From contig SVFD01000007.1 of NCBI GenBank assembly GCA_015057025.1, positions 1-64,000 on the forward strand: 64,000 nucleotides of DNA, given 5' to 3'. The notes beneath the pieces were generated by a model. It worked only from the letters and a program-made list of their open reading frames with translations. It had not been told where the DNA came from and made no database searches. The position numbers and the translations under genes were made by a program. Shown here piece after piece: positions 6,231 through 24,928 of the stretch. Position 1 is the first letter of the stretch, and each line of letters begins with the position of its first letter. Origin of the DNA: Lachnospiraceae bacterium (lineage in GTDB: Bacteria; Bacillota; Clostridia; Lachnospirales; Lachnospiraceae).

Positions 6231-6232
6231 GG

Positions 6233-9297: not shown

Positions 9298-10213
9298 AAT
9301 TTACGGATGTGGTAGCACTTTGGCATCAACAAAAATTATGTTTGGGGATCAGACCAGATATCGTCTGGGAGATGGACAGACAATACTCGATCTTGCAGAG
9401 GTGGCTATTAAAAAAGCGTTGGAAGATGCAGGAATGAAAATGTCGGATATTGATTGTATTATCGGTGGTATGGCAACACCTTTACAGGCAATTCCCTGCA
9501 ATGCGGCATTGATTCATGAACGTGTAGCATTAGGGATGGATATTCCTGCAATGGATATAAATACAACATGTACAAGTTTTGTTACGGCATTGGATATGGC
9601 AGCATATATGACAGATTGTGGAAGATATAGCAGGATATTAATTGTTTCGGGAGATACTGCATCTGCTGCACTTAATCCGAATCAACGCGAAAGTTATGAG
9701 TTATTTTCTGATGTCGCTACTGCATTTATTGTGGGTAAATCCGATACCGATTCGGGAGTACTGTTTGCGGCGCAGAAAACATGGTCAGAGGGCGCGCATG
9801 ATACTGAAATCAGGGGCGGCTGCGGTTTGTTGTCAGCGTTTAAATTCAGTGAAGAAAATAAAGAAGATTATTATTTTGATATGAAAGGAATTAAAGTATT
9901 GAAATTATCGGCCTATAAGCTTCCGGGATTTCTGAAAGAATCTTTGGAAAAAGCGGAAATGTCGTTGGATGATATTGATATCATTGTACCGCATCAGGCA
10001 AGTAAGGCTTTGGACATGATAATGCCACGATTAGGGATTGATAAGAGTAAATATATTAATCGTGTAAAAGAATTGGGCAATATGATTTCTGCGTCAATCC
10101 CTTATGCTTTGTGCGATGCGATACACGATGGACAGATTGTTCGCGGAAATACTGTAATGCTAATTGGTACTGCAGCCGGACTTACATCAAGTATGGTAAT
10201 CCTTAAGTATTAA
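9284..10213 (+). CDS. 3-oxoacyl-ACP synthase III-like (FabH/OleA-like) ketosynthase
   Basis: This 309-residue thiolase-fold enzyme has all three catalytic positions: Cys in DINTTCTSF (about residue 95), His in IIVPHQASKALD and Asn in KELGNMISASIPYAL. It therefore should catalyse a decarboxylative or head-to-head Claisen condensation. ATG 9284 is preceded by AAGGAGG (9271-9277) and lies 14 bp inside the upstream gene, so the two are probably translationally coupled. It is the last gene of the operon, followed by a bidirectional terminator. A housekeeping FabH would be expected beside fab genes, so the context favours a specialised pathway. Acyl substrates cannot be read from the sequence. Confidence 0.85.
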   Translation: MRNLKIYGCGSTLASTKIMFGDQTRYRLGDGQTILDLAEVAIKKALEDAGMKMSDIDCIIGGMATPLQAIPCNAALIHERVALGMDIPAMDINTTCTSFVTALDMAAYMTDCGRYSRILIVSGDTASAALNPNQRESYELFSDVATAFIVGKSDTDSGVLFAAQKTWSEGAHDTEIRGGCGLLSAFKFSEENKEDYYFDMKGIKVLKLSAYKLPGFLKESLEKAEMSLDDIDIIVPHQASKALDMIMPRLGIDKSKYINRVKELGNMISASIPYALCDAIHDGQIVRGNTVMLIGTAAGLTSSMVILKY

Positions 10214-10266
10214 TAGTGTTCATAAAATCAGAAAATAAGAGATAGATACAATGTTTATAAATTAAA

Positions 10267-10315
10267 AGGGAGTATCACGCTATAACTGGAATTTAGTTAT
10301 TTTGCGATACTCCCT
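10267..10315. terminator. Bidirectional terminator between the ketosynthase and pfp genes
   Basis: AGGGAGTATC (10267-10276) pairs with GATACTCCCT (10306-10315), and inner arms ATAACT and AGTTAT extend the hairpin. It lies between convergent genes and has A/T-rich flanks on both sides. Confidence 0.8.
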
Positions 10316-10348
10316 AATTATTTTAATTTATTTAAAATGCAGAATTTC

Positions 10349-12010
10349 TTATTTTGCCTGCTCAAGAGCAAGTGTTACAGTTGTGATATCGCATACTTCT
10401 GCAGGTCCGTAGTACTGGATAGCACCGGGGTATACGAAGCATGTTTCAACTGCCCATTCGTCACGGTTAGCTTCGAAGAATTTGAAAGGAGCACCATCTA
10501 ATTCAACTAAAGCTTTCTTAATAACGGGCTTATCTTCGCCATGTCTTCTTTCGATGTTCATCATCTTAGTGATAGGCATACCACCTGCAACCCATTCATT
10601 AGCGGGCTTAGAAAGGTTGGAAATCTTAGATAAGTATCCGTTGTAACCGTACTGGATAAGCATAAATGCATTGTATCCAAGGGAGTAGCAGTAGTCTGAG
10701 TCGAAGTTTGAAGGGAATGCACATCTTCCTTCGTATCCTAAGAAGTGGTGAAGTGCGCTGAATTTACCCTTGTATGTGCCTGCTGCCTTACGAGCTGCCA
10801 ACTTATCAGCAACCATAGCAGAGAATAACTTCTCAGATTCGATAAGGGATACCTGTACGTTTCCGTGAGGATCTCTTTCTAAGAATAACTGCTGCTGGAT
10901 AGCCTGAGGAAGGATTGCAAATACATCCATAGATTCCTTGGTTAAACCGTTCTGGATAAATGCATACTTTTCATCCCATGTAGGAAGAGCGTTGAATGCA
11001 TCAGCCTTGCTGCCTGCAAGGAGTTCGTTGATTTCGTGAATCAATACAGAGAATTCAGGAACGAATTCTACAACACCTTCGGGGATAATAGCAACACCGA
11101 AGTTCCAGCCCTTAGCTGCTCTCTTTTCAACTGAATCAGCAATGTAATCAGCGATCTGAGAAAGTGACATCTTCTTAGCAGCAACTTCTTCAGATACTAA
11201 GCAGATGTTAGGCTGTGTTTCAAGAGCACATTCCAAAGCTACGTGAGAAGCAGAACGTCCCATAACCTTAACAAAGTGCCAGTACTTCTTAGCTGAGTTA
11301 GCATCTCTTTCGATGTTACCGATGATTTCACTGTATGTCTTGGTAGCTGTATCGAAACCGAATGAACATTCAATGTCTTCGTTCTTTAAGTCACCGTCGA
11401 TTGTCTTAGGACATCCGATAACCTGTACACCTGTGTTGTTAGCTGCAAAGTATTCAGCAAGAACAGCAGCGTTTGTGTTAGAGTCGTCACCACCGATGAT
11501 AACAACAGCTGTGATGCCGTGCTTCTTACAAACTTCTGCAACGATAGCGAACTGTTCTTTTGTTTCAAGTTTAGTTCTGCCGGAACCGATGATATCGAAA
11601 CCACCTGTATTTCTGAACTTGTTGATGTATTCGTCATCAAAGATTAAATAGTCGTCTTCGATAAGACCGCTGGGGCCGCCCTTGAAGCCGTAAAGTTCGT
11701 TTTCAGGGTTTGTAGCCTTCAGGGCGTCATATAAACCACAGATAACGTTGTGTCCGCCGGGAGCCTGTCCACCGGAAAGGATAACACCTACAATCTGCTT
11801 CTTAGCAACAGATGTGTTCTGACCCTTCTGGAAAGTGATTTCTTTCTTACCATAGGTGTTGGGGAAAAGTTCTTTAATCTTTTCCTGATCAGCTACGCTC
11901 TGAGTTTCTGCACCTTCGTTTACGCAAATGTCAGCAATACCGTTTCTTAACATTGCGGGAAGCTTGGGAGAATACTCGTATCTTGCTTTCTGTAATGATG
12001 AAATTTTCAT
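10349..12010 (-). CDS. pfp: Pyrophosphate-dependent phosphofructokinase
   Basis: This 553-residue enzyme is of the long PPi-dependent phosphofructokinase class, which interconverts fructose 6-phosphate and fructose 1,6-bisphosphate using pyrophosphate in cytoplasmic glycolysis. Diagnostic features are [12 protein letters not shown] (about residues 79-90), the catalytic region [17 protein letters not shown] with Asp-Asp typical of PPi enzymes, PKTIDGDL and the segment [14 protein letters not shown]. Codon use is strongly biased compared with neighbours, as expected for a highly expressed glycolytic gene. It has its own promoter and a Shine-Dalgarno GGAG before the ATG at 12010. Confidence 0.95.
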
Positions 12011-12056
12011 AACTACGTCTCCTTTATGTAATATTTAATTTTTTACTCAAGTTTCA

Positions 12057-12085
12057 TTCTAATATATTTTAGAAGTAAAGTAAAC
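12057..12085 (-). promoter_or_regulatory. pfp promoter
   Basis: Read on the minus strand, -35 TTTACT (12085-12080), a 17-bp spacer and -10 TAGAAT (12062-12057) precede pfp by about 46 bp. Confidence 0.6.
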
Positions 12086-12160
12086 TGTAGAAATATGCAA
12101 AAAATTACTTTTTTCGATATTTCTTATATAAAAATCATACGAATCCGGAATTAAAGCCAC

Positions 12161-12218
12161 ATCACATTTCCTATTTTACGAATATGTCATAATGTGATAT
12201 AATTTTACAGAATGTGAC
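12161..12218 (+). promoter_or_regulatory. Promoter and inverted repeat of the ACP/radical-SAM operon
   Basis: The promoter is TTTACG (12175-12180), 17-bp spacer, extended -10 TGATATAAT (TATAAT at 12198-12203). ATCACATT (12161-12168) and AATGTGAT (12191-12198) form a perfect inverted repeat bracketing the -35 and spacer, and a third AATGTGA copy sits at 12211, near the transcription start. This arrangement looks like a repressor operator; the regulator is unknown. Confidence 0.6.
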
Positions 12219-12252
12219 AATTGTAAATACTGTTAAAAAAGGTGGTACAAAT

Positions 12253-13830
12253 ATGGCAGGTTATCCTTATCTTGATGTGGTGGTTTATAACAATTTTTAT
12301 GAGATGCTTCACAGCGTTTACGGCAAGACTCCGGAGGAGATTGCAATCCGTTACCGCGAAAAAGAAACCATACGCGATATAACCTATCGTGAGATGTTGG
12401 AAGAGACCACAAGTTTCTACTTCTATCTGAAGAATAAAAACTTAAAAAACAAACACATCGGTATTTTGTCGGAGAACCGTTATGAGTACCTTACAATTTA
12501 TTTTGCGACAGTATTTCAAAATGTAATTGCGCCCATGGATAAGGAAAATGTACCGGAGAATTTGTGGAAGCAGATTCATGATTTTGATATTAGTGTAGTT
12601 TTTTATACCGATAAAACAGCCCACCTGATTGAAAGTTTCAAAGATTCCGATGCAGTGGAATTTATCAATATTGATGAAGTGTATTGCAGCATCATCCAAG
12701 ACAAGCATCCCATTGATTTGCTCTGGGAAGAAATTAAGGATACGGACAGTGACCGCTTCTGTGTACTCGCATTTACATCAGGCACCACAGGAGATATTAA
12801 AGGCGCAATGCTTTCCCAGCGTAACGTAACGGCATGCTTAAGAGGTGCCTTGCAGAATAACGTCTTAAAAAGTCCAAGCCTTGCGGTACTTCCCATGAAT
12901 CATACCTACGGCTTCAATCCGGGGATTTTATGTACTTTGTATAACGGCGGAACCATTTGTTTGACTATGGAATTAAAACATTTCCAAAGGGATTTAAAAG
13001 AATATAATCCTTATTTTGTCAGCATGGTGCCCATGATTGCGGAGGGTGTTTATAAGAAGATTATGGCGGAAGCCAAACGTCAGAAAAAGGATAAGCTTCT
13101 TAAGCGTATGATTAAGCTTAGTAACTTTCTTTTGAAATTTAAAATCGATATTCGGAGAATGCTTTTCGGTAATCTAATAAACAAACGTTTAAAGTTCATT
13201 TCCTGCGGAGGTGCACCCTTAAATCCTTACTACGTAGATCGCTATATGGAGCTTGGAATTTATCTTTTAAACGGATACGGTTTGACGGAATGTGCACCAT
13301 TGATTTGTATCAATCGCGAATTCGATATGGATTCCGAAAGTGTTGGTACGATTATCAAAGAAGTCGATGCCAAAATTGCGGACGACGGTGAAATTTTAAT
13401 CAAGGGGCCCAACGTAATGCTTGGGTATTATAAGAACCCGGAAGCAACTGCGGAATGTATGGCAGACGGCTATTTTAAGACCGGCGATTACGGTTATTTA
13501 AAAGAGCGTCGTTTGTACGTAACGGGACGTAAGAAGAACTTGATTATTCTTGATAACGGCAAGAATGTTTTGCCGGAAATGATAGAGGCGAAATTAAGCA
13601 ACTTGGACTGGATTAAAGAGTGCATCGTTACCACCCGAAGGGTAAATGATAACCGCATTCTTGTAGCACTGATTTATACCGAAGAGGCACCGGAAGATAT
13701 TCAAGCGGATATCGACCGTATCAACGAAAGCCTGCCCGAATATATGCGTCTTGCGGATTATGAATTGATGGATAAAGAGTTTGAGAAAAACAGCACCAAG
13801 AAGATTTTAAGAAATAAATACGGAGAATAG
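12253..13830 (+). CDS. Acyl-AMP ligase/acyl-CoA (ACP) synthetase
   Basis: This 525-residue ANL-superfamily ligase has the ATP-binding signature FTSGTTGDIKGAML (about residues 178-191), the motif NGYGLTECAPL, the TGDYGYLKERRLYVTGRKK hinge region and the C-terminal catalytic Lys in NSTKKILRNKY. The reaction is ATP-dependent activation of a carboxylic acid as acyl-AMP and transfer to a thiol. The thiol is probably on the carrier protein encoded 5 bp downstream. I chose ATG 12253 because AGGTGG precedes it and a family-like N-terminus follows; an earlier in-frame ATG at 12214 lacks a good ribosome binding site. It is the first gene of a nine-gene operon. Confidence 0.85.
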   Translation: MAGYPYLDVVVYNNFYEMLHSVYGKTPEEIAIRYREKETIRDITYREMLEETTSFYFYLKNKNLKNKHIGILSENRYEYLTIYFATVFQNVIAPMDKENVPENLWKQIHDFDISVVFYTDKTAHLIESFKDSDAVEFINIDEVYCSIIQDKHPIDLLWEEIKDTDSDRFCVLAFTSGTTGDIKGAMLSQRNVTACLRGALQNNVLKSPSLAVLPMNHTYGFNPGILCTLYNGGTICLTMELKHFQRDLKEYNPYFVSMVPMIAEGVYKKIMAEAKRQKKDKLLKRMIKLSNFLLKFKIDIRRMLFGNLINKRLKFISCGGAPLNPYYVDRYMELGIYLLNGYGLTECAPLICINREFDMDSESVGTIIKEVDAKIADDGEILIKGPNVMLGYYKNPEATAECMADGYFKTGDYGYLKERRLYVTGRKKNLIILDNGKNVLPEMIEAKLSNLDWIKECIVTTRRVNDNRILVALIYTEEAPEDIQADIDRINESLPEYMRLADYELMDKEFEKNSTKKILRNKYGE

Positions 13831-13835
13831 AATTT

Positions 13836-14066
13836 ATGATAGCAGCATTGAAGAAATTAATGAAAGATAATTACGGGATTAAGCAAATCAACGATGATGA
13901 TAATTTCAAGAAAGATTACGGTTTGACTTCCTTTGATTTCGTAAATCTGGTTTGTTTGATTGAAGAAGAATACCACATTGAAATTGATGAAAAAGATTAT
14001 CGTTCTTTAAACACAGTAAGCGAGTTGATTGGGTATCTGGAAGCAAAGAGCGCAGAAGTAAGATAA
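13836..14066 (+). CDS. Acyl carrier protein
   Basis: This 76-residue acidic helical protein has carrier-protein length. The phosphopantetheine-attachment Ser sits in DYGLTSFDFVNLV (about residue 33), followed by an acidic recognition helix (LIEEEYHIEIDEKDY). It lies 5 bp after the acyl ligase and 10 bp before an acyltransferase gene. It is therefore likely a dedicated carrier for this pathway, on which the acyl chain is held while other enzymes act. The canonical DSL triad reads TSF, so it is divergent from housekeeping AcpP. Confidence 0.85.
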   Translation: MIAALKKLMKDNYGIKQINDDDNFKKDYGLTSFDFVNLVCLIEEEYHIEIDEKDYRSLNTVSELIGYLEAKSAEVR

Positions 14067-14076
14067 GGGGATAATT

Positions 14077-15162
14077 GTGAATATTACAGAAGTAAAAAGC
14101 AAATCAGAACAGAAAAAATTTCTTGCCTTCCGAAGAGAAATTTTAGGTAAAAACTCTCATTATGTGGACAACGATATTTTTATGATTAAGGACTTGTTCG
14201 CAGGGAAAACATCTTTTACGGATAACAAGGAAGTCAAAGTTTATTATGTGGAAGAGGAAGGCTGTATTCAGTGTGAGGGTATGGCGGTTTATACCGGACA
14301 GTTAGAAGAATTCATACAACTTAGTTTCTTTGTGAGTCGTGACGGCGTGGATGAAGCCGTTAAAATGCTTACGGACAAGGTTGTGGAAGTGGGTAAGGCT
14401 TTCGGATGTACAAGGCTTGTAATCGGCTTAAACGGCCACGTAAATTATGGTCTCGGATTGTTGGCTTCCGGCTACGAGAAGGGCAACTCCTTCGGTTCAG
14501 CCATTAATCACGAGTACTTCAATACCTATTTTAAAAATATGGGTTGTGAAGAAATTACCATGAGTACCTACCACATTGAAAAGATTGACAAGCAGTTGGA
14601 ACGTTATGCTGCCTTTCTTCGTAAAGTGGAACGTAATTATACATTTAAATGTTTCGATAAAAAGCATTTTGAGGAATATGCAAAAATTTATACGGATTTA
14701 AACAATCAATGTTTTCCCAACCACAGATATTACTATCCAAGAACCTATCAGGAAGATATTGAGATGTTAAAAGAACTGTTTTTGTTCATGAAAGAAGATT
14801 CATTGATTTTTGCTTTTGATGGTGACAAGCCGGTAGCATTTATTATGTGGTATCCGGATTTCAATGAGCTTGCCAAACCGGGCGAGGCATTTGGTGCAAA
14901 GCATTTTATAAAGAATCTGTTTTTGAATAAAAAGCTGAACACCGCCAAGGTAATGGAGTATGGGGTGTTGGAAGAATATCGTACCGTGGGAATGCCTCTC
15001 GTTCTGATTCATCAGGTATTTTTAAAGATAGTTGAAAACTACGGAGCAACCCGCGCGGAAACCTCCTGGGTATTAGATGAGAATGTGGACTCTTCCGGCT
15101 TTTGCAAAGCTGTTTGCGACGGAGTTTATAAGAGATATGTAGTATATGAAAAAGAAATTTAA
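14077..15162 (+). CDS. GNAT-type acyltransferase
   Basis: This 361-residue protein starts at GTG 14077 behind AAGGGG. Its N-terminal ~150 residues and C-terminal ~200 residues both look like GNAT folds, as in double-GNAT N-acyltransferases; the second half contains FAFDGDKPVAFIMWYPDFNE and MEYGVLEEYRTVGMPLVLI. Enzymes of this kind transfer an acyl group from CoA or ACP to an amine. With an acyl carrier protein and ligase directly upstream, acyl-ACP is the likely donor. The 3' end overlaps the next gene by 17 bp. I cannot name the acceptor. Confidence 0.65.
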   Translation: MNITEVKSKSEQKKFLAFRREILGKNSHYVDNDIFMIKDLFAGKTSFTDNKEVKVYYVEEEGCIQCEGMAVYTGQLEEFIQLSFFVSRDGVDEAVKMLTDKVVEVGKAFGCTRLVIGLNGHVNYGLGLLASGYEKGNSFGSAINHEYFNTYFKNMGCEEITMSTYHIEKIDKQLERYAAFLRKVERNYTFKCFDKKHFEEYAKIYTDLNNQCFPNHRYYYPRTYQEDIEMLKELFLFMKEDSLIFAFDGDKPVAFIMWYPDFNELAKPGEAFGAKHFIKNLFLNKKLNTAKVMEYGVLEEYRTVGMPLVLIHQVFLKIVENYGATRAETSWVLDENVDSSGFCKAVCDGVYKRYVVYEKEI

Positions 15163-16177
15163 TGAGGATATAAAAGTATATTGTGAGGAGCACTTTGATC
15201 AGTTGCCAAAGCTTCCCTTTTTGGAATATCCCTATGACAGGGAATTGTTGAATCTGATAAAAGAAAATAATCTTTTTAAACAGGAATATTATTATATTCA
15301 AAAAGGCGATTCCTACGCATTTTTTGTAGTGTATCATAACCGAATGGATATTTTTACCTTTGGAAAAAGAGCCTTGTATTACCCTGTTAAAGTAATAGGT
15401 TTTCCCTGTTCCTTAAGTTATCCGGGGTATGTAACCAATGATGAAAAGTTTATGCTTGATTACATCAAAACCATTAAGGGTGCGAAGCTTGTGCTGAATG
15501 TTTCAAACCCTATTGCTCACGGCAGTTACGTAATTGGTGAGACACTGCCTACCTGTATGGTGGATTTGACACGTGGTAATCATGGTAAAAGTTATGAAAG
15601 TGCAGAAGCATATTTTAAATGTTTTCGAAGTTCCTATCGCAGAAGAATTCGTCTGGCAATCAAAGCTTGTGATGATTTAGAAATGAAGCTGAATCCAAAG
15701 GACGGCAGAGTATATGATTTATACCGCAATACCTATGAGAAATCCGGCTATAAATTAGAACGGCTGGAGCCGGGATTTTTTGAACAGGCGGAGGCTGAAC
15801 AACTTGTTTTTTACAGGGACTGTAAGCCATGGGGGTTTGTTATGTTAAAAGGTGTAGGCGATAAACTAATCTTTATGTTCTGCGGAATGGATTATGCATC
15901 AGAAACTACGGATTTGTATTATTTTATGATTTATAACATTATAAAATATGCAATCGAAAATAAATTTAAATATATCGATTTGGGACAGACTTCCGAAGAA
16001 ACCAAGATGAAATTCGGAGCTGTTCTTGAGAAGAAATATTTTTATGCCAATCATACAAATGTATTGTTAAATACAGCCATTAAGTTAGGAAAAGGACTTC
16101 TGGAGTATCATTATAGTTTTCCGGATTATAAGGTATTCAAGAAAGAAAGTGAAAAACATGAAAGTACTATTTTTTAG
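15146..16177 (+). CDS. FemAB/BioF2-like GNAT acyltransferase
   Basis: This 343-residue protein resembles FemAB/BioF2-type acyltransferases. The core is YFKCFRSSYRRRIRLAIKA (about residues 152-170), a typical basic helix of the family, followed by PWGFVMLKGVGDKLIFMFCG and YIDLGQTSEETKMKFGA near the C-terminus. It overlaps both neighbours (17 bp and 20 bp), indicating translational coupling. Together with the preceding GNAT gene it gives this operon two acyl-transfer steps. Aminoacyl or acyl transfer to a cell-wall or lipid precursor, or N-acylation of an amino acid, are the main options. Confidence 0.7.
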   Translation: MKKKFNEDIKVYCEEHFDQLPKLPFLEYPYDRELLNLIKENNLFKQEYYYIQKGDSYAFFVVYHNRMDIFTFGKRALYYPVKVIGFPCSLSYPGYVTNDEKFMLDYIKTIKGAKLVLNVSNPIAHGSYVIGETLPTCMVDLTRGNHGKSYESAEAYFKCFRSSYRRRIRLAIKACDDLEMKLNPKDGRVYDLYRNTYEKSGYKLERLEPGFFEQAEAEQLVFYRDCKPWGFVMLKGVGDKLIFMFCGMDYASETTDLYYFMIYNIIKYAIENKFKYIDLGQTSEETKMKFGAVLEKKYFYANHTNVLLNTAIKLGKGLLEYHYSFPDYKVFKKESEKHESTIF

Positions 16178-17522
16178 ACCAAGACCGCATAAGGAAACCA
16201 TTGGTTTGCAGAACGTTATGATTTGTGAGCCTTTGGAACTGGAGTATCTGGCATCCAACATTGAAGCACTGGGACATGAAGCGATTATCGTGGATATGAT
16301 TCTTGAGAAAAAGTCTTTGGCATATTTTCTTAAGTTGCATAAGCCCGATATAGTAGGCCTTACAGGTTACATTGCCCATGTCAATGTCATTAAAGAATAT
16401 GCCAAGAAGATTAAGGCTTATGATGAGAAACTGCCTGTTGTTGTGGGTGGTGTTCATGCCGAGGTAAATCCGGAGGATTTTGAATGTGAGTATATCGATT
16501 ACATTGTACGTGCCAATGGTATTCGCACTTTTATCGAAATTCTGGATTCACTGGAACAAAAAGAAGATGCACATAGGATTCCCTGCGTTTATCAAAAAAA
16601 CGGTCCTGATGTAGTTAAAGAAAATGAATTCAATTATTTATTCCCGGCAAGAGATAAGGTGGATAAATACCGGAAGCATTATTATTATATGTTTCATCGG
16701 AACTGCAGTCTGATTAAGACAAGTTACGGTTGCCCTTATCAGTGTAAATTTTGTTTCTGTCGTCAAATTACGGACGGGAAGTATTTTACCCGTACACTGG
16801 AGAATATCATAGAAGAGTTAGAGAGCGTACCGGAAACGGAAATTTATATAGTGGATGATGATTTTCTGGTAGACAGGAAACGCCTGTTTCGCTTCTGCGA
16901 TATGCTGGAAGAGAAGGGCATAGATAAAAAATATTTGATTTACGGAAGGGCAGATTTTATTGCTGCCAACGAAGACGTAATCAAGCGTTTTAAGGAAGTA
17001 GGATTGCGGGCGGTTATTGTAGGTTTGGAATCCTGTGACAGTAACGAACTGGTGGATTATAACAAGAAGTCCAACGTAGCGATAAATGAGGAAGCGGTAG
17101 CAATTCTCAAACGCTATGATGTGGAATGTTACGGTACCTTTATTCTGGGGCTGGATTGGCGGAAAGAAGACTTTAAAGCCCTTGGCAGGTGGATTAAAAA
17201 ATTGGGTCTTGTATTTGTAAATTTACAACCGTTAACGCCGCTTCGGGGAACTGAAATGTATGAGCAGTACCGCAATGATTTCATTGTGGCAGAAGAAGAA
17301 TACGAGAAGTGGGATTTGGCACATCTGGTTGTAAAACCCACGCATATATCGGCACGGAAATATTATTGGTACACGATGGTATTGTATTACACAATTACCG
17401 CAAATCCGGTAAGTGCATGGTATATGATTAAAAAATACGGACTGCATGATACATTGAAATTAACCGTAGGTGCTTTTAAGGTAAACTGGCAATATATGAA
17501 GAAATTAATGAGGGGAAAGTAA
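16158..17522 (+). CDS. B12-binding-domain radical SAM enzyme 1
   Basis: This protein of about 454 residues has an N-terminal cobalamin-binding Rossmann-like domain (residues about 1-140; VVVGGVHAEVNPEDF) without the DxHxxG histidine loop, and a radical SAM barrel with the [4Fe-4S] motif CPYQCKFC (about residues 192-199). VDDDFLVDRKRL and VGLESCD are conserved in BchE-type enzymes. Such enzymes carry out radical methylations, C-C bond formations or rearrangements. ATG 16158 was preferred; GTG 16149 is possible. It is the first of five related genes in tandem. The neighbouring carrier protein suggests a lipid-like substrate, which is inference. Confidence 0.85.
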   Translation: MKVLFFRPRPHKETIGLQNVMICEPLELEYLASNIEALGHEAIIVDMILEKKSLAYFLKLHKPDIVGLTGYIAHVNVIKEYAKKIKAYDEKLPVVVGGVHAEVNPEDFECEYIDYIVRANGIRTFIEILDSLEQKEDAHRIPCVYQKNGPDVVKENEFNYLFPARDKVDKYRKHYYYMFHRNCSLIKTSYGCPYQCKFCFCRQITDGKYFTRTLENIIEELESVPETEIYIVDDDFLVDRKRLFRFCDMLEEKGIDKKYLIYGRADFIAANEDVIKRFKEVGLRAVIVGLESCDSNELVDYNKKSNVAINEEAVAILKRYDVECYGTFILGLDWRKEDFKALGRWIKKLGLVFVNLQPLTPLRGTEMYEQYRNDFIVAEEEYEKWDLAHLVVKPTHISARKYYWYTMVLYYTITANPVSAWYMIKKYGLHDTLKLTVGAFKVNWQYMKKLMRGK

Positions 17523-18851
17523 ATGAAACAGAAGATAAAAATATTATTGGTTCGTCCTAAATTCACAACAATCATTGCAAACTTAGAGCCTTTAGGATTG
17601 GAATATATCATGGGGCTGTGTAACGATTTGGAAGTGGAATGCGAAATTTTTGATGAATTCCAGTATCCCTATTTTAACCGGATGAACCGTTTGACCAATA
17701 AGATAAAAAAGGGTGGTTTTAATTACATAGGGTTCAATGCAAATGCCAATACGGTAGACTACATTCTTGAGACCTCCAAGAAACTTAAGAAGCGTTTGGA
17801 TAACATCAATATCTGGGTGGGCGGACCGGAAGCCGAAATGAATTATAAAGATTTCTGCACCGAATCAATCGATATGGTATATTACGATAACGGTTTACAG
17901 ACTATGAAGAATTTAATTCTCGGCGGTTTTGAGGAAGCTGTTATGGATGAACAGAATGGTATTTGTTTTAAGAAGAACGGAGAATGGGTATTTAAGAAAA
18001 AAGGCCCTGCGGTAGACGACTTTATCTGTAAGCCTGACCGTACTGCTTTTTATCAGGGACTTAAAAAGAATTTTATTTTCTTAAAAGGCAGTTATGCATT
18101 GAGTAAAGCCTCCTTCTCCTGTCCTTTTAACTGCAGCTTCTGTTACTGTACGAAGATGAACAGTGATGTTTATACCGAAAGAGATATTATGAAGGTAGTG
18201 GATGAGATAGAAGAGATTGATCATCCGAGAATCTGGTTTGTGGACGATACCTTTTTTGTAGATAAAAAGCGCGTTAAAATGTTCTGTGATGAGATTATTA
18301 AAAGAGGCATTAAAAAGCAGTTTATGGCATACGCAAGAGCAGATTTTCTGGCGGAGAATCCGGATAACATTCTTGCCCTTGCTTATGAGGCAGGCTTCCG
18401 CGATATTATGGTAGGTTTGGAAGCCATCAGTGATGAACAGTTAAACGAATATAATAAGCAAACCTCCCGTAATGAAAATATCATGGCAATTAAGAATCTC
18501 CACGATAACAATCTGGTATGCAATGCCTTATTTGTGGTAAGTCATACTTCCACCAAGCAGGACTTTAGGAACCTCATTAAGTTTATCCGTGAGAATAATC
18601 TGCTTTGGGTGGTATTCGGTATTTTTACCCCTTATAAGGGAACGGATGCCTATGATGAATATAAGGACCGCGTGATTAAATTTAAGTCCAAGAGATTGGA
18701 TGGTATTCACATTACCATTAAGCCGGAGCATATGTCATCCTTTATGTTTATGTTCCGCGTATACTGGCTTCATGTTTTGACCTATCCCAAGGTTATGTGC
18801 AGAGCCTTGTTTAAGACAGCATATGATACGAAACGTAAGGGCTGGTTTTAG
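17523..18851 (+). CDS. B12-binding-domain radical SAM enzyme 2
   Basis: This 442-residue paralogue begins immediately after the preceding stop codon. It has the N-terminal B12-type domain (ANLEPLGLEYIMGL; VGGPEAEMNYKDF), the cluster motif CPFNCSFC (about residues 200-207), VDDTFFVDKKRV and VGLEAISDE. The LEPLGLEYIM segment is shared almost exactly with the next protein, so these two arose by recent duplication relative to the others. The substrate is unknown. Confidence 0.85.
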   Translation: MKQKIKILLVRPKFTTIIANLEPLGLEYIMGLCNDLEVECEIFDEFQYPYFNRMNRLTNKIKKGGFNYIGFNANANTVDYILETSKKLKKRLDNINIWVGGPEAEMNYKDFCTESIDMVYYDNGLQTMKNLILGGFEEAVMDEQNGICFKKNGEWVFKKKGPAVDDFICKPDRTAFYQGLKKNFIFLKGSYALSKASFSCPFNCSFCYCTKMNSDVYTERDIMKVVDEIEEIDHPRIWFVDDTFFVDKKRVKMFCDEIIKRGIKKQFMAYARADFLAENPDNILALAYEAGFRDIMVGLEAISDEQLNEYNKQTSRNENIMAIKNLHDNNLVCNALFVVSHTSTKQDFRNLIKFIRENNLLWVVFGIFTPYKGTDAYDEYKDRVIKFKSKRLDGIHITIKPEHMSSFMFMFRVYWLHVLTYPKVMCRALFKTAYDTKRKGWF

Positions 18852-18866
18852 TGAAAGAAATGGGGA

Positions 18867-20216
18867 ATGAAAATGAGAAAAGAACGTTATTTACTGGTGC
18901 GTGCACCCTATGATAAAAGAGTTGCAAGTTTAGAACCCTTAGGGTTGGAATATATTATGGCAGCAATTAAGGCAGAAGATGCTTTTTGTATGATTCATGA
19001 TGAAAGTATCAATAGCCCATGTTTTCGCTTTAAGAGGCTGTTAAAAGTTATTGAAGAGAATAATATAACCATTGTGGGATTTTCCATTATTTCCAACATT
19101 GCACATTATGTTTTAAAAGAACTCCACAAATTAAAGAAGGCCCGCCCTGAGCTGAAAATCATGGTGGGCGGCGCGGAAGTTTTTATTAATCCTGAAGATT
19201 TTATGCTGGAGGATATAGACTTTGTACTCTACGACCATGGTCTGGATTCCATCCGTCTTGCAGTGCGTAATGAATTTGCAGGAGAAGCATTAAAGGACTG
19301 TACCGGCCTTGCTTATCGTGACGGGGATGTATGGGTAAAAAATGAAAAAGGCGAGCCCATAAGCGATTACGGTCTGCTTCCTGACAGAAGTCATTTTTAT
19401 GACAATATTAAAAAGTACCGCGTCCTTGCCAAAGGTACATTCTCTGTAATGAAGACTGCCTTTTCCTGCCCGCAGAAATGTAACTTCTGCATTTCCAGAC
19501 AGTTTAACGGCTGTCACTATGCAGAACGTAAAGTGGATGATGTGGTAGATGAAATTCTGGGACTTAACAACGATAAAATTTTTATCATTGATGACGATTT
19601 CCTGGTAAATAAAGAAAGAGTTTTGGAAATCTGTAATAAGTTAATCGAGCATAATTGTTATAAAACTTTTATGATATTTGCAAGAGCCGACAGTATTGTA
19701 CGGTGCAAAGACATAATGCCTCTGCTTTACAAGGTTGGTTTCCGTGATATGCTGGTGGGCCTGGAAGCTACCAATGATGAAACTCTGGATTATTATAACA
19801 AGAATTCCAGCGTGGCATTGAACCGGGAAGCGGTTAAAATTCTTCGTGAAAACAAAATGCTTTGTGTGGGATTATTTGTAATCAACTATGATTTTACCCA
19901 TAAGAATTTCATGGAAATCAATAAGTTTATTAAGAAAGAAAAACTTATATGGGTGCTGTTCAGTATTCTTATTCCTTTTAAGGGAACTGTTACTTATGAG
20001 GAGAATAAGGATAAGTTATATAAATACGAGTACAAGAGGACCGGCGGTACCCATGTATTGATGAAACCGGAGCATCTGCCCATGTGGTTATTTAAGCTGG
20101 AATACGATTTCTTATACTACGTAAATTATCCGAGAATTTATCTGGCATCTATTCTCGGAACCTTTGATAAGATATATAAAAATAAAGGAAATAAAGATGA
20201 AAGTACTGTTGATTAA
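18867..20216 (+). CDS. B12-binding-domain radical SAM enzyme 3
   Basis: This 449-residue paralogue shows ASLEPLGLEYIMAA, VGGAEVFINPEDF, the [4Fe-4S] motif CPQKCNFC (about residues 204-211), IDDDFLVNKERV and VGLEATNDE. The start at 18867 is uncertain: ATG 18873, two codons later, sits closer to the GGGG ribosome binding site. Its last 20 bp overlap the next gene. It is closest to enzyme 2 in this operon. Confidence 0.85.
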   Translation: MKMRKERYLLVRAPYDKRVASLEPLGLEYIMAAIKAEDAFCMIHDESINSPCFRFKRLLKVIEENNITIVGFSIISNIAHYVLKELHKLKKARPELKIMVGGAEVFINPEDFMLEDIDFVLYDHGLDSIRLAVRNEFAGEALKDCTGLAYRDGDVWVKNEKGEPISDYGLLPDRSHFYDNIKKYRVLAKGTFSVMKTAFSCPQKCNFCISRQFNGCHYAERKVDDVVDEILGLNNDKIFIIDDDFLVNKERVLEICNKLIEHNCYKTFMIFARADSIVRCKDIMPLLYKVGFRDMLVGLEATNDETLDYYNKNSSVALNREAVKILRENKMLCVGLFVINYDFTHKNFMEINKFIKKEKLIWVLFSILIPFKGTVTYEENKDKLYKYEYKRTGGTHVLMKPEHLPMWLFKLEYDFLYYVNYPRIYLASILGTFDKIYKNKGNKDESTVD

Positions 20217-21555
20217 GCCGGAAACGGTAGGTATCTTTGCGTTAACCGCTCAGGTAGACCATGAGCCGCTGGAAATGGAATATTTATATACGGTGATAAA
20301 GTTTTTGGGACATGAGGCTGTAATTTATGACAGACGCCATGATTTAACGTCACTTAAAAAGAAACTGCGAAAGGTAAAGCCTGACGTAGTTTGTATGACG
20401 GGATATATTACCCAGGAACCACTGATAAAGAATTTGACTAAAGCAGTCAAGAGATATGATTCAAAGATTAGGGTTGTTTTAGGCGGAAGCCACGTGGAAA
20501 TTAATTATCGTAATTTCTATGATTCGGACGCGGATTATTTATATCATTTAAGCGGGTTAAAAAATTTTGCTCTTCTTATGTTGTATTTAAGCGGAGAAAA
20601 AAAGGATCTGCCCTTGGAGGATATAAAGGGCATATGTTACCGCAAAGACGGTGAATGGATTTTTAATGACAAAGAAGTGGAAAGCCCGGCAGACTTACCG
20701 GTGCCAGACAGAAGTTATTTGTATGCTAATTTAAAACGTTACGGCTATTTGAAATTCAGACCCTTGGCACTTGTTAAAAATTCCTACAGTTGTCCTAATG
20801 CCTGTACCTTTTGTTATTGCACCAATCGAAACGGCGGTGCATACCGTTGCAGGAATGTGGAGCATTTGGTTGAAGAGATTGCATCCCTTGATGTTCCTAA
20901 TGTACATATTACGGATGACAACTTTTTGGTCAGCAGAGAATATTTACAGGAATTTATCCGTCTGATAAAAGAAAAGAATATTCAAAAGAAATTTTTGATA
21001 TACGGGCGGGCGGATTTTATTGCTGAGAACGAAGATATTATGAAGGAATTGGCCGAAATCGGTTTGTCATTGGTTATGGTAGGTCTGGAAGCTACCGATG
21101 ACAAGGAATTGGATTCCTACAACAAACATGCCACGGTTTGGCACAATGAAGAATGTGTGCGCATTTTAAGTGAGAATAATATTATTTGTGCAGGACTTTT
21201 TATCGTGCATCAGGATATGGATAAAAAGGATTTTAAGGACTTGTATAAATGGATTGCAAGCAGACCGATTATTCCGACGGTATCCGTTTTTACACCTATG
21301 CAGGGGGCTGCCAATTACAAGGAGTATGAGAAGAATTTGGTAAGTAAAGATATCCGTAAGCAAGACTTATTCCATTGTATTTTAAAGCCGAAGCATATGA
21401 GCGTTTTTGCTTTTACCATGCAGTATTATAAAATGTCCTTAAAACTTGCTTTTCATAATCGTAAGGCTGAGTTGTATAAGACTATCGGCATTAAGGATTT
21501 TCTGTTTGTTATTAAGACATTATGCATTCAGTTTCGGAGAATTTTTATTTTATAA
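20197..21555 (+). CDS. B12-binding-domain radical SAM enzyme 4
   Basis: This protein of about 452 residues starts at ATG 20197 (AAAGGAA upstream), inside the end of the preceding gene. It has VDHEPLEMEYLYTV and LGGSHVEINYRNF in the cobalamin domain, CPNACTFC as the cluster motif (about residues 198-205), TDDNFLVSREYL and VGLEATDDK. The EPLxxEY segment aligns it with enzymes 1-3. The C-terminal ~90 residues are basic and helical, as in its paralogues. The substrate is unknown. Confidence 0.85.
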   Translation: MKVLLIKPETVGIFALTAQVDHEPLEMEYLYTVIKFLGHEAVIYDRRHDLTSLKKKLRKVKPDVVCMTGYITQEPLIKNLTKAVKRYDSKIRVVLGGSHVEINYRNFYDSDADYLYHLSGLKNFALLMLYLSGEKKDLPLEDIKGICYRKDGEWIFNDKEVESPADLPVPDRSYLYANLKRYGYLKFRPLALVKNSYSCPNACTFCYCTNRNGGAYRCRNVEHLVEEIASLDVPNVHITDDNFLVSREYLQEFIRLIKEKNIQKKFLIYGRADFIAENEDIMKELAEIGLSLVMVGLEATDDKELDSYNKHATVWHNEECVRILSENNIICAGLFIVHQDMDKKDFKDLYKWIASRPIIPTVSVFTPMQGAANYKEYEKNLVSKDIRKQDLFHCILKPKHMSVFAFTMQYYKMSLKLAFHNRKAELYKTIGIKDFLFVIKTLCIQFRRIFIL

Positions 21556-21591
21556 AAGCAGACCGGAAAGTCTGTTTTCGGGAGTAAAACA

Positions 21592-22911
21592 ATGAATAAA
21601 AAGATTTTATTAATACAGCCCACTCCATATGACCAACATGGAGTGCTGGTAAAAAAGAGCAGACTGTTTTTCGTGGGCTTGGCCTTGCCTTTGCTTGCGG
21701 CTTTAACACCGGAAGAGTATGAGGTGGAGCTTTGCTATGAGACTATCGAAGATGTTCCTTTTGACACGGATGCGGATTTGATTGGTATCAGCAGCATGGG
21801 ACATGCGGTACATCGTACCATTGATATTGCCAATAAGTTTAGGGAAATGGGAAAAACAGTGGTACTGGGCGGTTATATGGTAAGTCTTATGCCCAAGGAA
21901 GCAGAAAAGTATGCAGACTGCGTAATGATTGGAGATGCGGAAGAAACCTGGGCCGAAATGCTCCGCGATTATTCCAACGGGGAATTAAAAAAGGTATATC
22001 AAAAGAAGCTTACCAAATTGGAAACTCCGCTGCCGAAATATGAATTGCTTTTAAATAAAAAAATAGGCAATTTTTTACCGGTACAGGCCGGAAGGGGATG
22101 CCCGAAAACCTGTAGCTTTTGTTCGGTATATTGCTTATACAGGGGTCAGTATTTAAAGAGAAGTATTCCCGATGTGATCAGAGATATTAAACGTGTAAAA
22201 GAATTGGGTTTTAAACAATTTCTTTTATTGGATGACAATATTTTCTCCGACAGGAATTACGCAATTGAATTATGTGCAGAAATTAAAAAGTTAAAAATGA
22301 AATGGATGACGCAATGCTCCATTGATATTGCAAAAGATGAAGAATTGCTGGATATTATTGCCAAAAGCGGATGCTATGTTTTAAGCTTCGGTTTGGAGAG
22401 TATTACAAGAGAAAGTCTTGTCAGTATGAATAAGGCATGGGCTCATCCCGAGAATTATTCCGAGCAGATTCGCATCATTCGTAAGCATGGTATTGATATC
22501 TCAACGGAAATGGTTGTGGGGGCAGACGGAGACACCTTGGAATCCATCCGTGCCACTGCAGATTTTATCGCAAAGAATCATATTGCGGTACCGAGATTTT
22601 ATATTCTTACGCCGATTCCCGGAACCAAGTTTTTTGATGAAATGGAAGAGCAAAATCGTATTTACAACGCAGATATATATTCCTATAATTCCTGCGAAGC
22701 AGTGCATTATCCGAAGAATATGACACCGGAGGAATTAACGAAGGCATACTGGGATTTGTACAATGATGTATACAGCATCGGAAGTATATTAAAGAGAACA
22801 ATTTTTACTGATGCATTTGTGAAGCGTCCGGTAAATTCCTTATTTTACTTTGGCGTAAATCTCTTTTATCGTTCCCAGATTAAGAAAGGGATTGTGCCCA
22901 ATATTGTGTAG
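21592..22911 (+). CDS. B12-binding-domain radical SAM enzyme 5
   Basis: This 439-residue enzyme is more distant from the other four and closer to general BchE/hopanoid-type proteins. The N-terminal domain includes GISSMGHAVHRTIDIANKF and VVLGGYMVSLMPKEAEKYAD. The cluster motif is CPKTCSFC (about residues 179-186), preceded by QAGRGC, followed by LDDNIFSDRNYA and SFGLESI. It is separated from enzyme 4 by 36 bp and closes the operon. No clear terminator follows before the uraA promoter. Confidence 0.85.
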   Translation: MNKKILLIQPTPYDQHGVLVKKSRLFFVGLALPLLAALTPEEYEVELCYETIEDVPFDTDADLIGISSMGHAVHRTIDIANKFREMGKTVVLGGYMVSLMPKEAEKYADCVMIGDAEETWAEMLRDYSNGELKKVYQKKLTKLETPLPKYELLLNKKIGNFLPVQAGRGCPKTCSFCSVYCLYRGQYLKRSIPDVIRDIKRVKELGFKQFLLLDDNIFSDRNYAIELCAEIKKLKMKWMTQCSIDIAKDEELLDIIAKSGCYVLSFGLESITRESLVSMNKAWAHPENYSEQIRIIRKHGIDISTEMVVGADGDTLESIRATADFIAKNHIAVPRFYILTPIPGTKFFDEMEEQNRIYNADIYSYNSCEAVHYPKNMTPEELTKAYWDLYNDVYSIGSILKRTIFTDAFVKRPVNSLFYFGVNLFYRSQIKKGIVPNIV

Positions 22912-22920
22912 CGTTAAATA

Positions 22921-22949
22921 TTGTGGGCAGTATAAAAAAGTGTTATGAT
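22921..22949 (+). promoter_or_regulatory. uraA promoter
   Basis: TTGTGG (22921-22926), a 17-bp spacer and an extended -10 TGTTATGAT (TATGAT 22944-22949) lie 43 bp before uraA. No PyrR-type attenuator was seen in the short leader. Confidence 0.6.
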
Positions 22950-22992
22950 GTACATGGTGTAAAATATACAAAAAATACCAAGGAGGCTAAAG

Positions 22993-24366
22993 ATGAGTAA
23001 CAAAACACAAGATGCAGTTTACAATGCAAAAGAACTTGGCGCAGGCAAGGTTATCGTTTTAGGACTTCAGCACATGTTTGCCATGTTCGGTTCTACCGTT
23101 TTAGTACCGATTCTTACAGGATTAAATGTGTCAACCACACTTTTATTTGCCGGAATCGGAACACTTTTATTTCACTTGTTAACCAAAGGAAAAGTTCCGG
23201 CGTTCTTAGGTTCTTCCTTCGCATTTTTAGGCGGATATTTTGCGATTGCGCCAATGATTGACGGCAAGAGTAATATTGAAATGATTCCTTATGCCTGCTT
23301 TGGTGTGGCATGTGCCGGACTTCTTTATTTGGTGATGGCGTTATTGATTAAGTTATTCTCAGCAAAGAGAATTATGAAATTCTTCCCGCCTATCGTAACA
23401 GGTCCGATTATTATTGCCATCGGTTTGACATTGTCTAAGTCGGCCATTGACAGTTGTTCTTCTAACTGGATTATTGCGCTGGTAGCAATTCTTGCAGTTA
23501 TTATTTGTAATATTTTTGGTAAGGGTATGATTAAAATTATTCCTATCTTAATTGGTGTAGTTGCATCCTATTTGGTAGGTATCTGCATGGGACAGGTAGA
23601 TTTTAGCGGTGTTAAAGATGCCGCATGGATTGGACTTCCCATCAATATGGATACTACAGTTTTTGCAATGTTTGGTGAAAATTTTGATGCATCTTTAATG
23701 ATTACAGCAATCATTACCATTATGCCTATTGCATTGGCAACCATTGTAGAACATATTGGTGACGTATCTGCTATTTCATCAACGGTTGGCAAGAATTTTA
23801 TTAAGGACCCGGGACTTCACAGAACTTTACTGGGTGATGGTCTTGCAACCATCGTTGCTTCTCTGTTTGGGGCTCCTGCAAATACAACCTATGGTGAGAA
23901 TACAGGTGTTTTAAACTTATCCAAAGTATATGATCCTATGGTAGTAAGACTGGCAGCAGTCTTTGCAATCTTCTTCTCTTTCTGCCCGAAATTTGCAGCG
24001 GTGATTCAGGCAATGCCTACTGCAACGGTTGGTGGTATTTCCTTAATCCTTTACGGTATGATTTCAGCAGTCGGAGTACGTAACGTAGTAGAAAATAAGG
24101 TCGACTTTGCGAAGTCCCGTAACGTTATCATTGCAGCATTGATTCTTGTTCTTTCCATTGGAATTAATTACAGTACCGCAGGTGCAATTGCTTTTACAAT
24201 TGGTGAAATTACAATAAGCCTTTCCGGACTTGCAGTTGGTGCGTTAACAGGTATTATCTTAAATGCAATTCTTCCCGGCAAGGATTATAATTTTGATGAA
24301 GAGAAACCTGATGACACAGGTGTGAATTTTGAAGTTGGACAGACACGCTCCATGAAGAGCGAGTAA
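22993..24366 (+). CDS. uraA: Uracil permease, NCS2 family
   Basis: This 457-residue polytopic membrane protein of the nucleobase-cation symporter-2 family has about 14 hydrophobic segments and imports uracil with a cation. Recognisable parts are LQHMFAMFGSTVLVPILTGL near the N-terminus, IGDVSAISSTVG, and FGAPANTTYGENTGVL (about residues 293-308), where the Glu and following residues form the substrate site in UraA-type carriers. AAGGAGG precedes the ATG. The upp gene, encoding the salvage enzyme for the imported uracil, lies about 5 kb downstream on the other strand. Confidence 0.9.
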   Translation: MSNKTQDAVYNAKELGAGKVIVLGLQHMFAMFGSTVLVPILTGLNVSTTLLFAGIGTLLFHLLTKGKVPAFLGSSFAFLGGYFAIAPMIDGKSNIEMIPYACFGVACAGLLYLVMALLIKLFSAKRIMKFFPPIVTGPIIIAIGLTLSKSAIDSCSSNWIIALVAILAVIICNIFGKGMIKIIPILIGVVASYLVGICMGQVDFSGVKDAAWIGLPINMDTTVFAMFGENFDASLMITAIITIMPIALATIVEHIGDVSAISSTVGKNFIKDPGLHRTLLGDGLATIVASLFGAPANTTYGENTGVLNLSKVYDPMVVRLAAVFAIFFSFCPKFAAVIQAMPTATVGGISLILYGMISAVGVRNVVENKVDFAKSRNVIIAALILVLSIGINYSTAGAIAFTIGEITISLSGLAVGALTGIILNAILPGKDYNFDEEKPDDTGVNFEVGQTRSMKSE

Positions 24367-24422
24367 ATTATAGAAGTAACACTCCTTTTTGTACCGGAGT
24401 AAGATAGAATTCTTTTGTGAAT

Positions 24423-24556
24423 TTTGTACATCGACTTCCAAGTATATTGTGTTAGAATGAAGACATAAAAAGGTACTACCGATAGACGGTTAGTCCGGTT
24501 ATATTAGAACGAAATAATCGCCTAGGTCTGAACTACTGAAGGCGATTATTTTTATG
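24423..24556 (+). ncRNA. Type I antitoxin-like small RNA of a decayed toxin module (locus A)
   Basis: Bases 24423-24496 match 47102-47175 with only two differences, including a promoter (-35 TCGACT 24431-24436, 16-bp spacer, -10 TAGAAT 24453-24458) and the RNA start region GGTACTACC...CGGTTAGTCC, which can fold into a 5' hairpin. The RNA would end at the hairpin formed by AATAATCGCCT (24513-24523) and AGGCGATTATT (24540-24550). On the opposite strand lies a toxin remnant. One of the two changes weakens the -35 (TTGACT to TCGACT). Predicted RNA, about 24465-24556. Confidence 0.6.
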
Positions 24557-24608
24557 ATTTATTACTGCCCAGCGAATAACCAGGGCCAAAGGCTGTAGTG
24601 ACATCAAA
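24552..24608 (-). pseudogene. Remnant of a holin-like type I toxin
   Basis: The minus strand encodes TTAFGPGYSLGSNKS followed by a stop. This matches the C-terminal part of the intact toxin at 47225-47320 (LTAFGLGYAIGSNKAQK). The start codon, ribosome binding site and hydrophobic N-terminal half are missing. The sequence just beyond runs into the promoter and leader of the lipoprotein cassette, so insertion or recombination of that cassette probably removed the 5' half. Confidence 0.65.
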
Positions 24609-24616
24609 TCTCCGCC

Positions 24617-24928
24617 TTGCACACTGATGAAAAAAGTGCTATATTTTTATCATAAAAATAAGTCGAAAGGACTTGCATATATAATGCCCCAGAATATAAT
24701 CATTAAAGAAAGAAAGAAAGAAAGAAAGAAAGAACATGAAGTAGGCTCTTTTTTGGGGCTTTCTTTGGCGTGTATTTCGGATGAATTTATAAGGGTAAAC
24801 AGGTGAACTCTGTCGTGCGTAAGCATGGCGGAGTTTTTTGTGTTTAAAGCTGTGAGAATCAAAATACAACCTGTGGGAATTTACATGGTTAAAAGTCCTT
24901 CGACGGATAAGGAAGAGGAGAATAAGAA
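24617..24928 (+). promoter_or_regulatory. Lipoprotein leader copy 1: promoter, tetranucleotide tract, attenuator
   Basis: The promoter is TTGCAC (24617-24622), 17-bp spacer, TATATT (24640-24645). The leader of about 275 nt holds: AAGTCGAAAGGACTT (24660-24674), which can fold alone or pair with AAGTCCTTCGAC (24893-24904) next to the ribosome binding site; seven AAAG units (24705-24732) that can pair with CTTTCTTT (24759-24766); and an 11-bp GTAA-loop hairpin followed by six T's (24806-24839), a clear intrinsic terminator about 90 nt before the ATG. Near-identical copies stand at 26632 and 28419. Confidence 0.7.

Follow-up and report, generated by a model that had tools for sequence, protein, structure and literature searches.

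A conserved core of two predicted transferases and two B12-type radical SAM proteins in an apparently undescribed bacterial pathway

Introduction

Among described systems, rhodobacterial ceramide synthesis employs the AasR ligase, the AcpR carrier protein and the CerS N-acyltransferase, according to the available part of the source (PMC11324152). Mss and Tes are presented, in the portions available, as membrane-spanning lipid synthases that join alkyl chains, Tes being a radical S-adenosylmethionine (SAM) enzyme (PMC13274423, PMC11868695, PMC9433317). In this work we analyzed a 64,000-nucleotide stretch of a Lachnospiraceae bacterium genome (contig SVFD01000007.1, positions 1 to 64,000; hereafter the window), which carries a nine-gene operon for a ligase (LIG), a carrier protein (ACP), two predicted transferases (GN1 and GN2) and five putative B12-type radical SAM proteins (R1 to R5). 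The operon is the Lachnospiraceae version of a widespread and apparently undescribed pathway built around GN1, GN2, R1 and R5. The original prediction, made from the DNA sequence alone, had named no described pathway with exactly this gene set; consistent with this, none was found in the literature searched, with subscription papers and preprints outside the scope.

Results

A four-gene core recurs across bacterial groups

A GN1 profile search of a named genome collection gave 77 loci from the best 80 of 102 matches, a sample biased to GN1, comprising 41 near loci (L044-L084) and 36 distant loci from other Clostridia, Bacillota and further groups. Several pairs of loci lie on the same contigs (e.g., L090/L151, L078/L037 and L084/L029). 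Among these best 80 of 102 matches, the closest by identity were Lachnospiraceae from deer gut. Genes were counted in the 58 of 77 mapped loci where the cluster is clear of the locus edge (28 near and 30 distant), with score thresholds of 200 bits for LIG and 45 bits for ACP, and split genes treated as two open reading frames (ORFs).

GN2, R1 and R5 were present in 25, 27 and 25 of the 28 near loci, and in 30, 29 and 29 of the 30 distant loci, respectively. LIG with ACP was found in 22 of the 28 near loci, whereas similarity to the window's proteins at these thresholds placed neither gene beside the core in any of the 30 distant loci. The 200-bit rule excluded one ORF near L103, which is LIG-like at 68 bits and 1284 aa long. 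A methyltransferase gene (MT) and an R4-type gene each occurred in 26 of the 30 distant loci. The invariant unit is GN1-GN2-R1-R5, not an ACP with radical enzymes; LIG and ACP are, as judged by sequence similarity, an add-on to it. The original prediction had proposed that the ACP, a FemAB-like protein and at least three radical SAM proteins would co-occur, and had reasoned from a dedicated carrier protein. Co-occurrence holds among near loci and the carrier logic in the local Lachnospiraceae variant only, but neither extends to the distant loci, all 30 of which have their radical SAM genes without a recognized ligase or ACP, the arrangement that the prediction had itself named as adverse.

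Losses from the core were few: L076 retains GN1 alone, L079 and L080 lack GN2, and L112 lacks R1 and R5. R5 is also missing from L078 and L084 as delimited, but R5, or its start, can be seen beyond that stretch in L037 and L029, which overlap them. Between two and five radical SAM ORFs were present in 54 of the 58 loci, the others having six (L083, with R5 split), eight (L062, including several fragments), one (L112) or none (L076). In L117 the R2-R4 genes lie on the strand opposite to R1-R5-GN1-GN2, which fits an add-on module. By record name, the distant loci include Desulfobacterota (Desulfopila, Electrothrix and a Desulfobulbaceae), Calditrichales, Cloacimonadota, Myxococcota and Gastranaerophilales; taking the phylum placement of these names as we presume it to be, the cluster is in at least six phylum-level groups, five of them beyond Bacillota. 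Cultured carriers named in the collection include Lachnospiraceae bacterium G41 and AB2028, Fusibacter ferrireducens and Anaerovirgula multivorans. A phosphotransacetylase gene located 5' of GN1 in L065, L066, L075 and L077 (recognized by eye, and by Pfam in L066) was judged to be a mere neighbor.

The core genes are inherited together

To offset the GN1 bias, profiles of R5, R1 and GN1 were run on 398 genomes of the window's phylum, presumably Bacillota, and the genomes picked out were consistent from one scan to another. R5 orthologues scored at least 690 bits in 8 of the 398 genomes, with all other matches at 335 bits or below, and R1 orthologues scored at least 460 bits in the same 8 genomes, the best score elsewhere being 326. 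GN1 reached at least 310 bits in these genomes and in one more (G438), where it stands alone in the 12 kb examined; other GN1 matches did not exceed 152 bits. All seven of the other R5-orthologue neighborhoods contain GN1, GN2, R1, R4b and MT. GN1-like proteins at 79-152 bits (L167-L178) were rejected as cluster members, with no cluster gene nearby in 12 of 12 cases, as was the GN1-like protein of L166 (311 bits) on the same ground.

Pairwise distances of GN1, GN2, R1 and R5 across 30 distant loci correlated with r of 0.78-0.91, compared with 0.40 or less when the labels were shuffled 1000 times. Because genome kinship feeds such correlations, they establish co-inheritance and not function. 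The earlier view that the genes form one functional unit is supported.

Conservation in near relatives

GN2 was found in 17 of 61 relatives, comprising 16 of 31 genomes of the genus (the source genome included) and 1 of 30 others. Sixteen near loci were read (L027-L042), together with L043, a separate contig of genome G007 that carries the ligase alone. Eight of the 16 have all nine genes in the same order (L027, L031, L033, L034, L035, L038, L039 and L040), the ligase of L038 being cut by a contig end. Contig ends truncate four further loci (L032, L036, L041 and L042), and L037 has two genes inserted ahead of R5. Gene order is kept in L028, where R1-R4 are open and R5 falls in two ORFs (14764-16104), reflecting either a disrupted copy or an assembly error. 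L029 and L030 are of a variant type that has a methyltransferase and different radical SAM genes. Since the flanking genes differ among many species, the cassette is a unit in itself.

Directly 3' of the L028 cluster, at 16319-19498, are NifH-type and nitrogenase component 1-type genes, which we considered as pathway members and judged to be mere neighbors. Downstream in L029 (291-3564), an ABC ATPase, a P-loop GTPase-like protein, a cysteine-rich protein, a rhodanese-like protein and a thioredoxin-like protein were recognized by eye, with the ABC ATPase assigned by Pfam on the same gene in L084; this set is perhaps involved in metal or corrinoid handling.

Organization of the operon

The genome comprises 2.65 Mb in 15 contigs, with the window on contig 10. 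The nine genes form a plus-strand run at 12253-22911 (Table 1), for which the LIG start was chosen as the ATG at 12253, the mechanical ORF beginning at a GTG at 12214. Successive junctions from gene 1 to gene 9 measure 5, 10, -17, -20, 0, 15, -17 and 36 bases. The nine-gene operon and its overlapping or nearly abutting genes, as predicted from the sequence, are thus borne out, with junctions of -20 to +36 bases. An operon is more than chance here because the same order of genes is seen again in other species and the core in other phyla.

The single promoter with a bracketing inverted repeat that had also been proposed did not hold up. Sites resembling TTTACG/TATAAT number 46 in 10200-24900 against 45.4 in shuffled sequence, although the -10 region of the candidate site is kept in the sister species. 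The inverted repeat consists of two 8-base arms (12161-12168 and 12191-12198) and was ruled out as an operator, given the short arms and the left arm not being conserved in the sister species. An Rfam search of the window and four loci for an RNA leader gave no match near the operon.

Table 1. Coordinates and assignments of the operon genes and the promoter-like site in the window.
Feature	Positions	Strand	Assignment	Length (aa)	Pfam family or basis
Promoter-like site	12175..12203	+	TTTACG-17-TATAAT, extended -10		consensus scan, weak
LIG	12253..13830	+	AMP-dependent acyl ligase	525	PF00501
ACP	13836..14066	+	carrier protein	76	PF00550
GN1	14077..15162	+	tandem-GNAT N-acyltransferase (predicted), core	361	
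GN2	15146..16177	+	Fem/MprF-fold transferase (predicted), core	343	
R1	16158..17522	+	B12-type radical SAM, core	454	PF02310, PF04055
R2	17523..18851	+	B12-type radical SAM, add-on	442	PF04055
R3	18867..20216	+	B12-type radical SAM, add-on	449	PF02310, PF04055
R4	20200..21555	+	B12-type radical SAM, R4/R4b lineage	451	PF04055, PF02310
R5	21592..22911	+	B12-type radical SAM, most conserved core gene	439	PF04055, PF02310

Radical SAM proteins

The prediction of five B12-type radical SAM proteins is consistent with their domains. R1 to R5 all exceed the Pfam cut-off for Radical_SAM (PF04055; 54.6, 56.2, 41.2, 61.8 and 65.8 bits) and carry a CxxxCxFC cluster motif. The B12-binding domain (PF02310) is above the cut-off in R1 (67.6 bits), R3 (40.9), R4 (49.5) and R5 (38.6), and just under it in R2 (29.4 bits against 32.1). 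An EPLxxEY motif had been noted in four of the five proteins, which had been read as serial duplicates; six-frame translation of the window finds it in exactly R1-R4 and not in R5. R1-R4 are indeed paralogues at ~30-39% mutual identity, with R5 set apart, and the duplications that gave rise to them must be old, because R1-R4 share 58-95% identity with their orthologues in near relatives. R2 is the sister of R3 in a protein tree that was quick, has long branches, lost some R4b rows to a motif filter and serves for grouping only.

None of the nine operon proteins reaches the cut-off of any listed NCBIfam family (for LIG, among the best 25 of 90 families). The nearest family is HpnR for R1 and R4 and BchE for R3, with R2 nearly tied between the two: R1 to R5 score 184.7, 116.7, 114.7, 150.7 and 65.6 bits with HpnR (cut-off 650) and 127.4, 116.2, 131.5, 135.5 and 93.7 bits with BchE (cut-off 481). 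For the PhpK P-methylase, R5 is the top scorer at 99 bits (cut-off 600), and the five proteins score 50-82 bits with TIGR04072 (cut-off 360). As no cut-off is reached by the radical SAM proteins, the methylation, cross-linking and ring formation of the original prediction are each possible; we consider methylation the most likely modification.

R5 is 47-81% identical to eight aligned orthologues, and its best sequence match among solved structures is AprD4 (E 1.5e-12). A solitary family of B12-type radical SAM proteins related to R5 (L158-L165, with a member on contig 8 of the source genome at 173141-174319) occurs in many genomes of the phylum at 35-37% identity. These paralogues were rejected as cluster members, as none of the eight has a cluster gene within the 7-14 kb that was read. 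A single cobalamin riboswitch is present in the genome, away from the operon.

GN1 and GN2 transferases

GN1 matched no Pfam family at E<=0.001. Its predicted model is a tandem GNAT, a two-GNAT fold also seen in glucosamine N-acetyltransferase and mycothiol synthase, and GN1 is thus predicted to fold like amine N-acyltransferases; the substrates of these nearest-fold enzymes are, we assume, small polar amines. GN2 belongs to Acetyltransf_6 (PF13480) at 24.8 bits against a cut-off of 22. The FemAB Pfam family was not matched, PF13480 being the only family for GN2 at E<=0.001 and for its relative in L088 at E<=0.01. The predicted GN2 model has a two-GNAT Fem fold, closest to Sba18/Sbb17 and FemX and also MprF-like, which suggests a fold like that of Fem/MprF aminoacyl-tRNA transferases. 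Sequence searches of the PDB with GN1 and GN2 returned nothing convincing. Both predicted folds agree with the amide or ester transfer by GNAT/FemAB-type proteins put forward earlier, and the Fem-like fold of GN2, the methyltransferase of the relatives and the extra decarboxylases described below go beyond that account.

Ligase, carrier protein and acyl supply

LIG has an AMP-binding domain (PF00501, 181.4 bits), and its best NCBIfam match, among the best 25 of 90 families, is a long-chain fatty-acid ligase (176 bits, under the cut-off of 476). ACP matches PP-binding (PF00550) at 42.1 bits, is one of seven such matches in the genome, and has an attachment serine (Ser32) invariant in seven of seven aligned sequences. 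A LIG paralogue in the same genome (L185, 1750-4755) joins ligase, ACP and NAD_binding_4 reductase domains in one protein of 1001 aa, and 15 of 19 genomes of the genus have a ligase match lying in an open frame of 983-1031 aa. In L062, accD, accA and enoyl-ACP reductase genes lie upstream of the cluster with one other gene between, and the MT of L029 is nearest to the malonyl-ACP O-methyltransferase BioC (81.7 bits, cut-off 185). A different AMP ligase (22-26% identity) lies upstream in two further distant loci, both from a single genus.

Extra decarboxylases

Seven loci, all distant, carry a decarboxylase within or against the core. In L155 and L156, genes for a FeeM-type protein and a phosphatidylserine (PS) decarboxylase, both assigned by Pfam, are packed between R5 and R4b, and L157 has near-identical copies, recognized by likeness. 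The L155-L157 genomes have exactly two PS decarboxylases each, compared with one in four of four other cluster genomes tested. In L110, the end of GN2 overlaps the gene for a pyridoxal phosphate (PLP)-dependent, NspC-like decarboxylase (319 bits, cut-off 409), with a relative in the same place in L118, and in L114 and L119 a LysA-like decarboxylase lies 5' of GN1. All four genomes contain exactly two PF02784 matches, of which one lies in the cluster. No further copies were found in 110 loci searched, and no such decarboxylase adjoins the window operon. The recruitment of three decarboxylase kinds, two of them distantly related, to one core suggests that the pathway includes a step that makes or finishes an amine.

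Neighboring features in the window

Upstream of the operon and separated from it by a minus-strand gene, five plus-strand genes at 5025-10213 encode UDP-glycosyltransferase-like, NAD epimerase/3-beta-HSD-like, metallo-beta-lactamase-fold, CapK/PaaK-like and KAS-III proteins, the CapK/PaaK-like gene being a by-eye call with a weak AMP-binding match. This looks like a second, ketosynthase-based biosynthetic cluster. Three mutually similar lipoprotein-like genes (24929-25690, 26941-27675 and 28728-29465) all begin MSKRSLVAI(I/V)LM, and a drum small RNA (RF02958) lies at 27831-27934 with 47.9 bits against a gathering score of 43.

Discussion

We tentatively favor a pathway that assembles amides on an amine and modifies the attached acyl chain by radical chemistry, probably giving a lipid-like product. 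An acyl substrate is suggested by LIG and ACP, by the fatty acid genes beside the L062 cluster, by the BioC-near MT and by the proximity of R1-R4 to HpnR and BchE. An amine is suggested by the predicted fold of GN1, by the FeeM-type GNAT with PS decarboxylase in L155-L157, and by the PLP decarboxylases of L110, L114, L118 and L119. The predicted fold of GN2, the co-occurrence and correlated distances of the core genes, and the cobalamin riboswitch elsewhere in the genome also speak for this reading. Under this scheme, LIG would adenylate a fatty or other hydrophobic acid and load it onto ACP. R1-R4 could then each act at a separate chain position, most likely with a methyl group from methylcobalamin, so that more or fewer R1-R4-type enzymes would give differently decorated products. 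R5, of a different and highly conserved lineage, would carry out one obligatory radical step, whether methylation, dehydrogenation or C-C bond formation. From the predicted folds, GN1 may move the acyl group onto a primary amine and GN2 may add a second aminoacyl or acyl group from aminoacyl-tRNA or a thioester. The PS decarboxylase, LysA-type or NspC-type enzyme would supply or finish the amine in some distant lineages, while a housekeeping amine would serve elsewhere, the window included.

Part of this evidence could be read otherwise. The lack of ACP and ligase at the distant core would suit a small soluble metabolite, in which GN1 and GN2 (amino)acylate an amine or diamine and R1 and R5 modify it by methylation or oxidative rearrangement, as with AprD4 and BchE, to yield a metallophore, osmolyte, signal or cofactor, the Lachnospiraceae LIG and ACP adding only a tail. 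The small polar amines that we presume to be the substrates of GN1's nearest folds, the match of R5 to AprD4, and NspC-like and LysA-like decarboxylases, which suit diamines, point the same way. We find this possible but doubtful, as no constant exporter or assembly-line gene accompanies the core (BLAST clustering of the neighbors found no family in more than 6 of 36 distant loci) and the FeeM, PS decarboxylase and fab/acc neighbors at some loci indicate lipids.

Those same PS decarboxylases, present in three clusters, and the resemblance of GN2 to MprF, a phospholipid aminoacylator, would also fit a reaction on membrane lipids, with R5 and its partners joining or cyclizing phospholipid acyl chains like Mss or Tes and GN1 and GN2 modifying the head group; Mss-type lipids occur in Bacillota according to the available part of the source (PMC13274423). 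However, an Mss or Tes reaction takes one enzyme and not two to five, and Tes was not found with R5 or its solitary paralogue among solved structures at E<=1e-5, making this explanation unlikely. The closest folds of GN2, Sba18/Sbb17 and FemX, could instead indicate an aminoacyl-tRNA-dependent, peptide-type natural product, where GN2 attaches an amino acid to a carrier or an amine and this residue is then altered by the radical enzymes. This strikes us as improbable, because no sequence similarity of GN2 to the solved chains of Sba18/Sbb17 and FemX-type enzymes was found, and the nine genes, never more than 36 bases apart, have no space between them for a precursor-peptide gene.

If acyl-chain modification with amide assembly is retained, the products may be a family of aminolipids of anaerobes, a more speculative extension. 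Each would have an amine, two amide-linked groups attached by GN1 and GN2, and an acyl chain that a combinatorial set of B12 radical SAM enzymes, grouped about the obligatory R5 step, methylates or otherwise branches at several unactivated carbons. Some lineages would make the amine with their own decarboxylase, and the family would span at least six phylum-level groups with lineage-specific decorations. To our knowledge, few enzymes are known that functionalize unreactive lipid-chain carbons without oxygen. Two transferases and two radical enzymes as a core, to which one to three more radical SAM genes are usually added, make a compact set in which to find such reactions. With the core fixed and the other radical enzymes varying, the order and position of each step can be tested directly. 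Should the product prove to be a lipid, it would serve Lachnospiraceae of the rumen and gut, and other bacteria, as a membrane or signal molecule, one that was not tied to genes in the literature searched.

Comparison with known systems

The rhodobacterial ceramide cluster resembles the operon in its dedicated acyl-ACP ligase and ACP adjoining an N-acyltransferase, as far as the source is available (PMC11324152), but the operon has radical SAM enzymes instead, and Pfam found no serine palmitoyltransferase domain among its nine proteins. Mss and Tes differ in being one enzyme each with no GNAT partners described in the available parts of the sources, Mss being compared by description only. GN2 departs from the Fem/MprF transferases in belonging to Acetyltransf_6 and not FemAB by Pfam, the likeness being one of predicted fold. 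HpnR (TIGR04367), the top NCBIfam match of R1 and R4, shares B12-binding and radical SAM regions across most of its length; unlike HpnR, the operon has several paralogues and two GNAT-type transferases, and its best score is 184.7 bits against 650. No other hopanoid genes were spotted by eye in the window, where no aimed search was made. A further likeness is to TIGR04072, presumably associated with a ladderane cluster, whose B12/radical SAM proteins are tied by family name to lipid synthesis.

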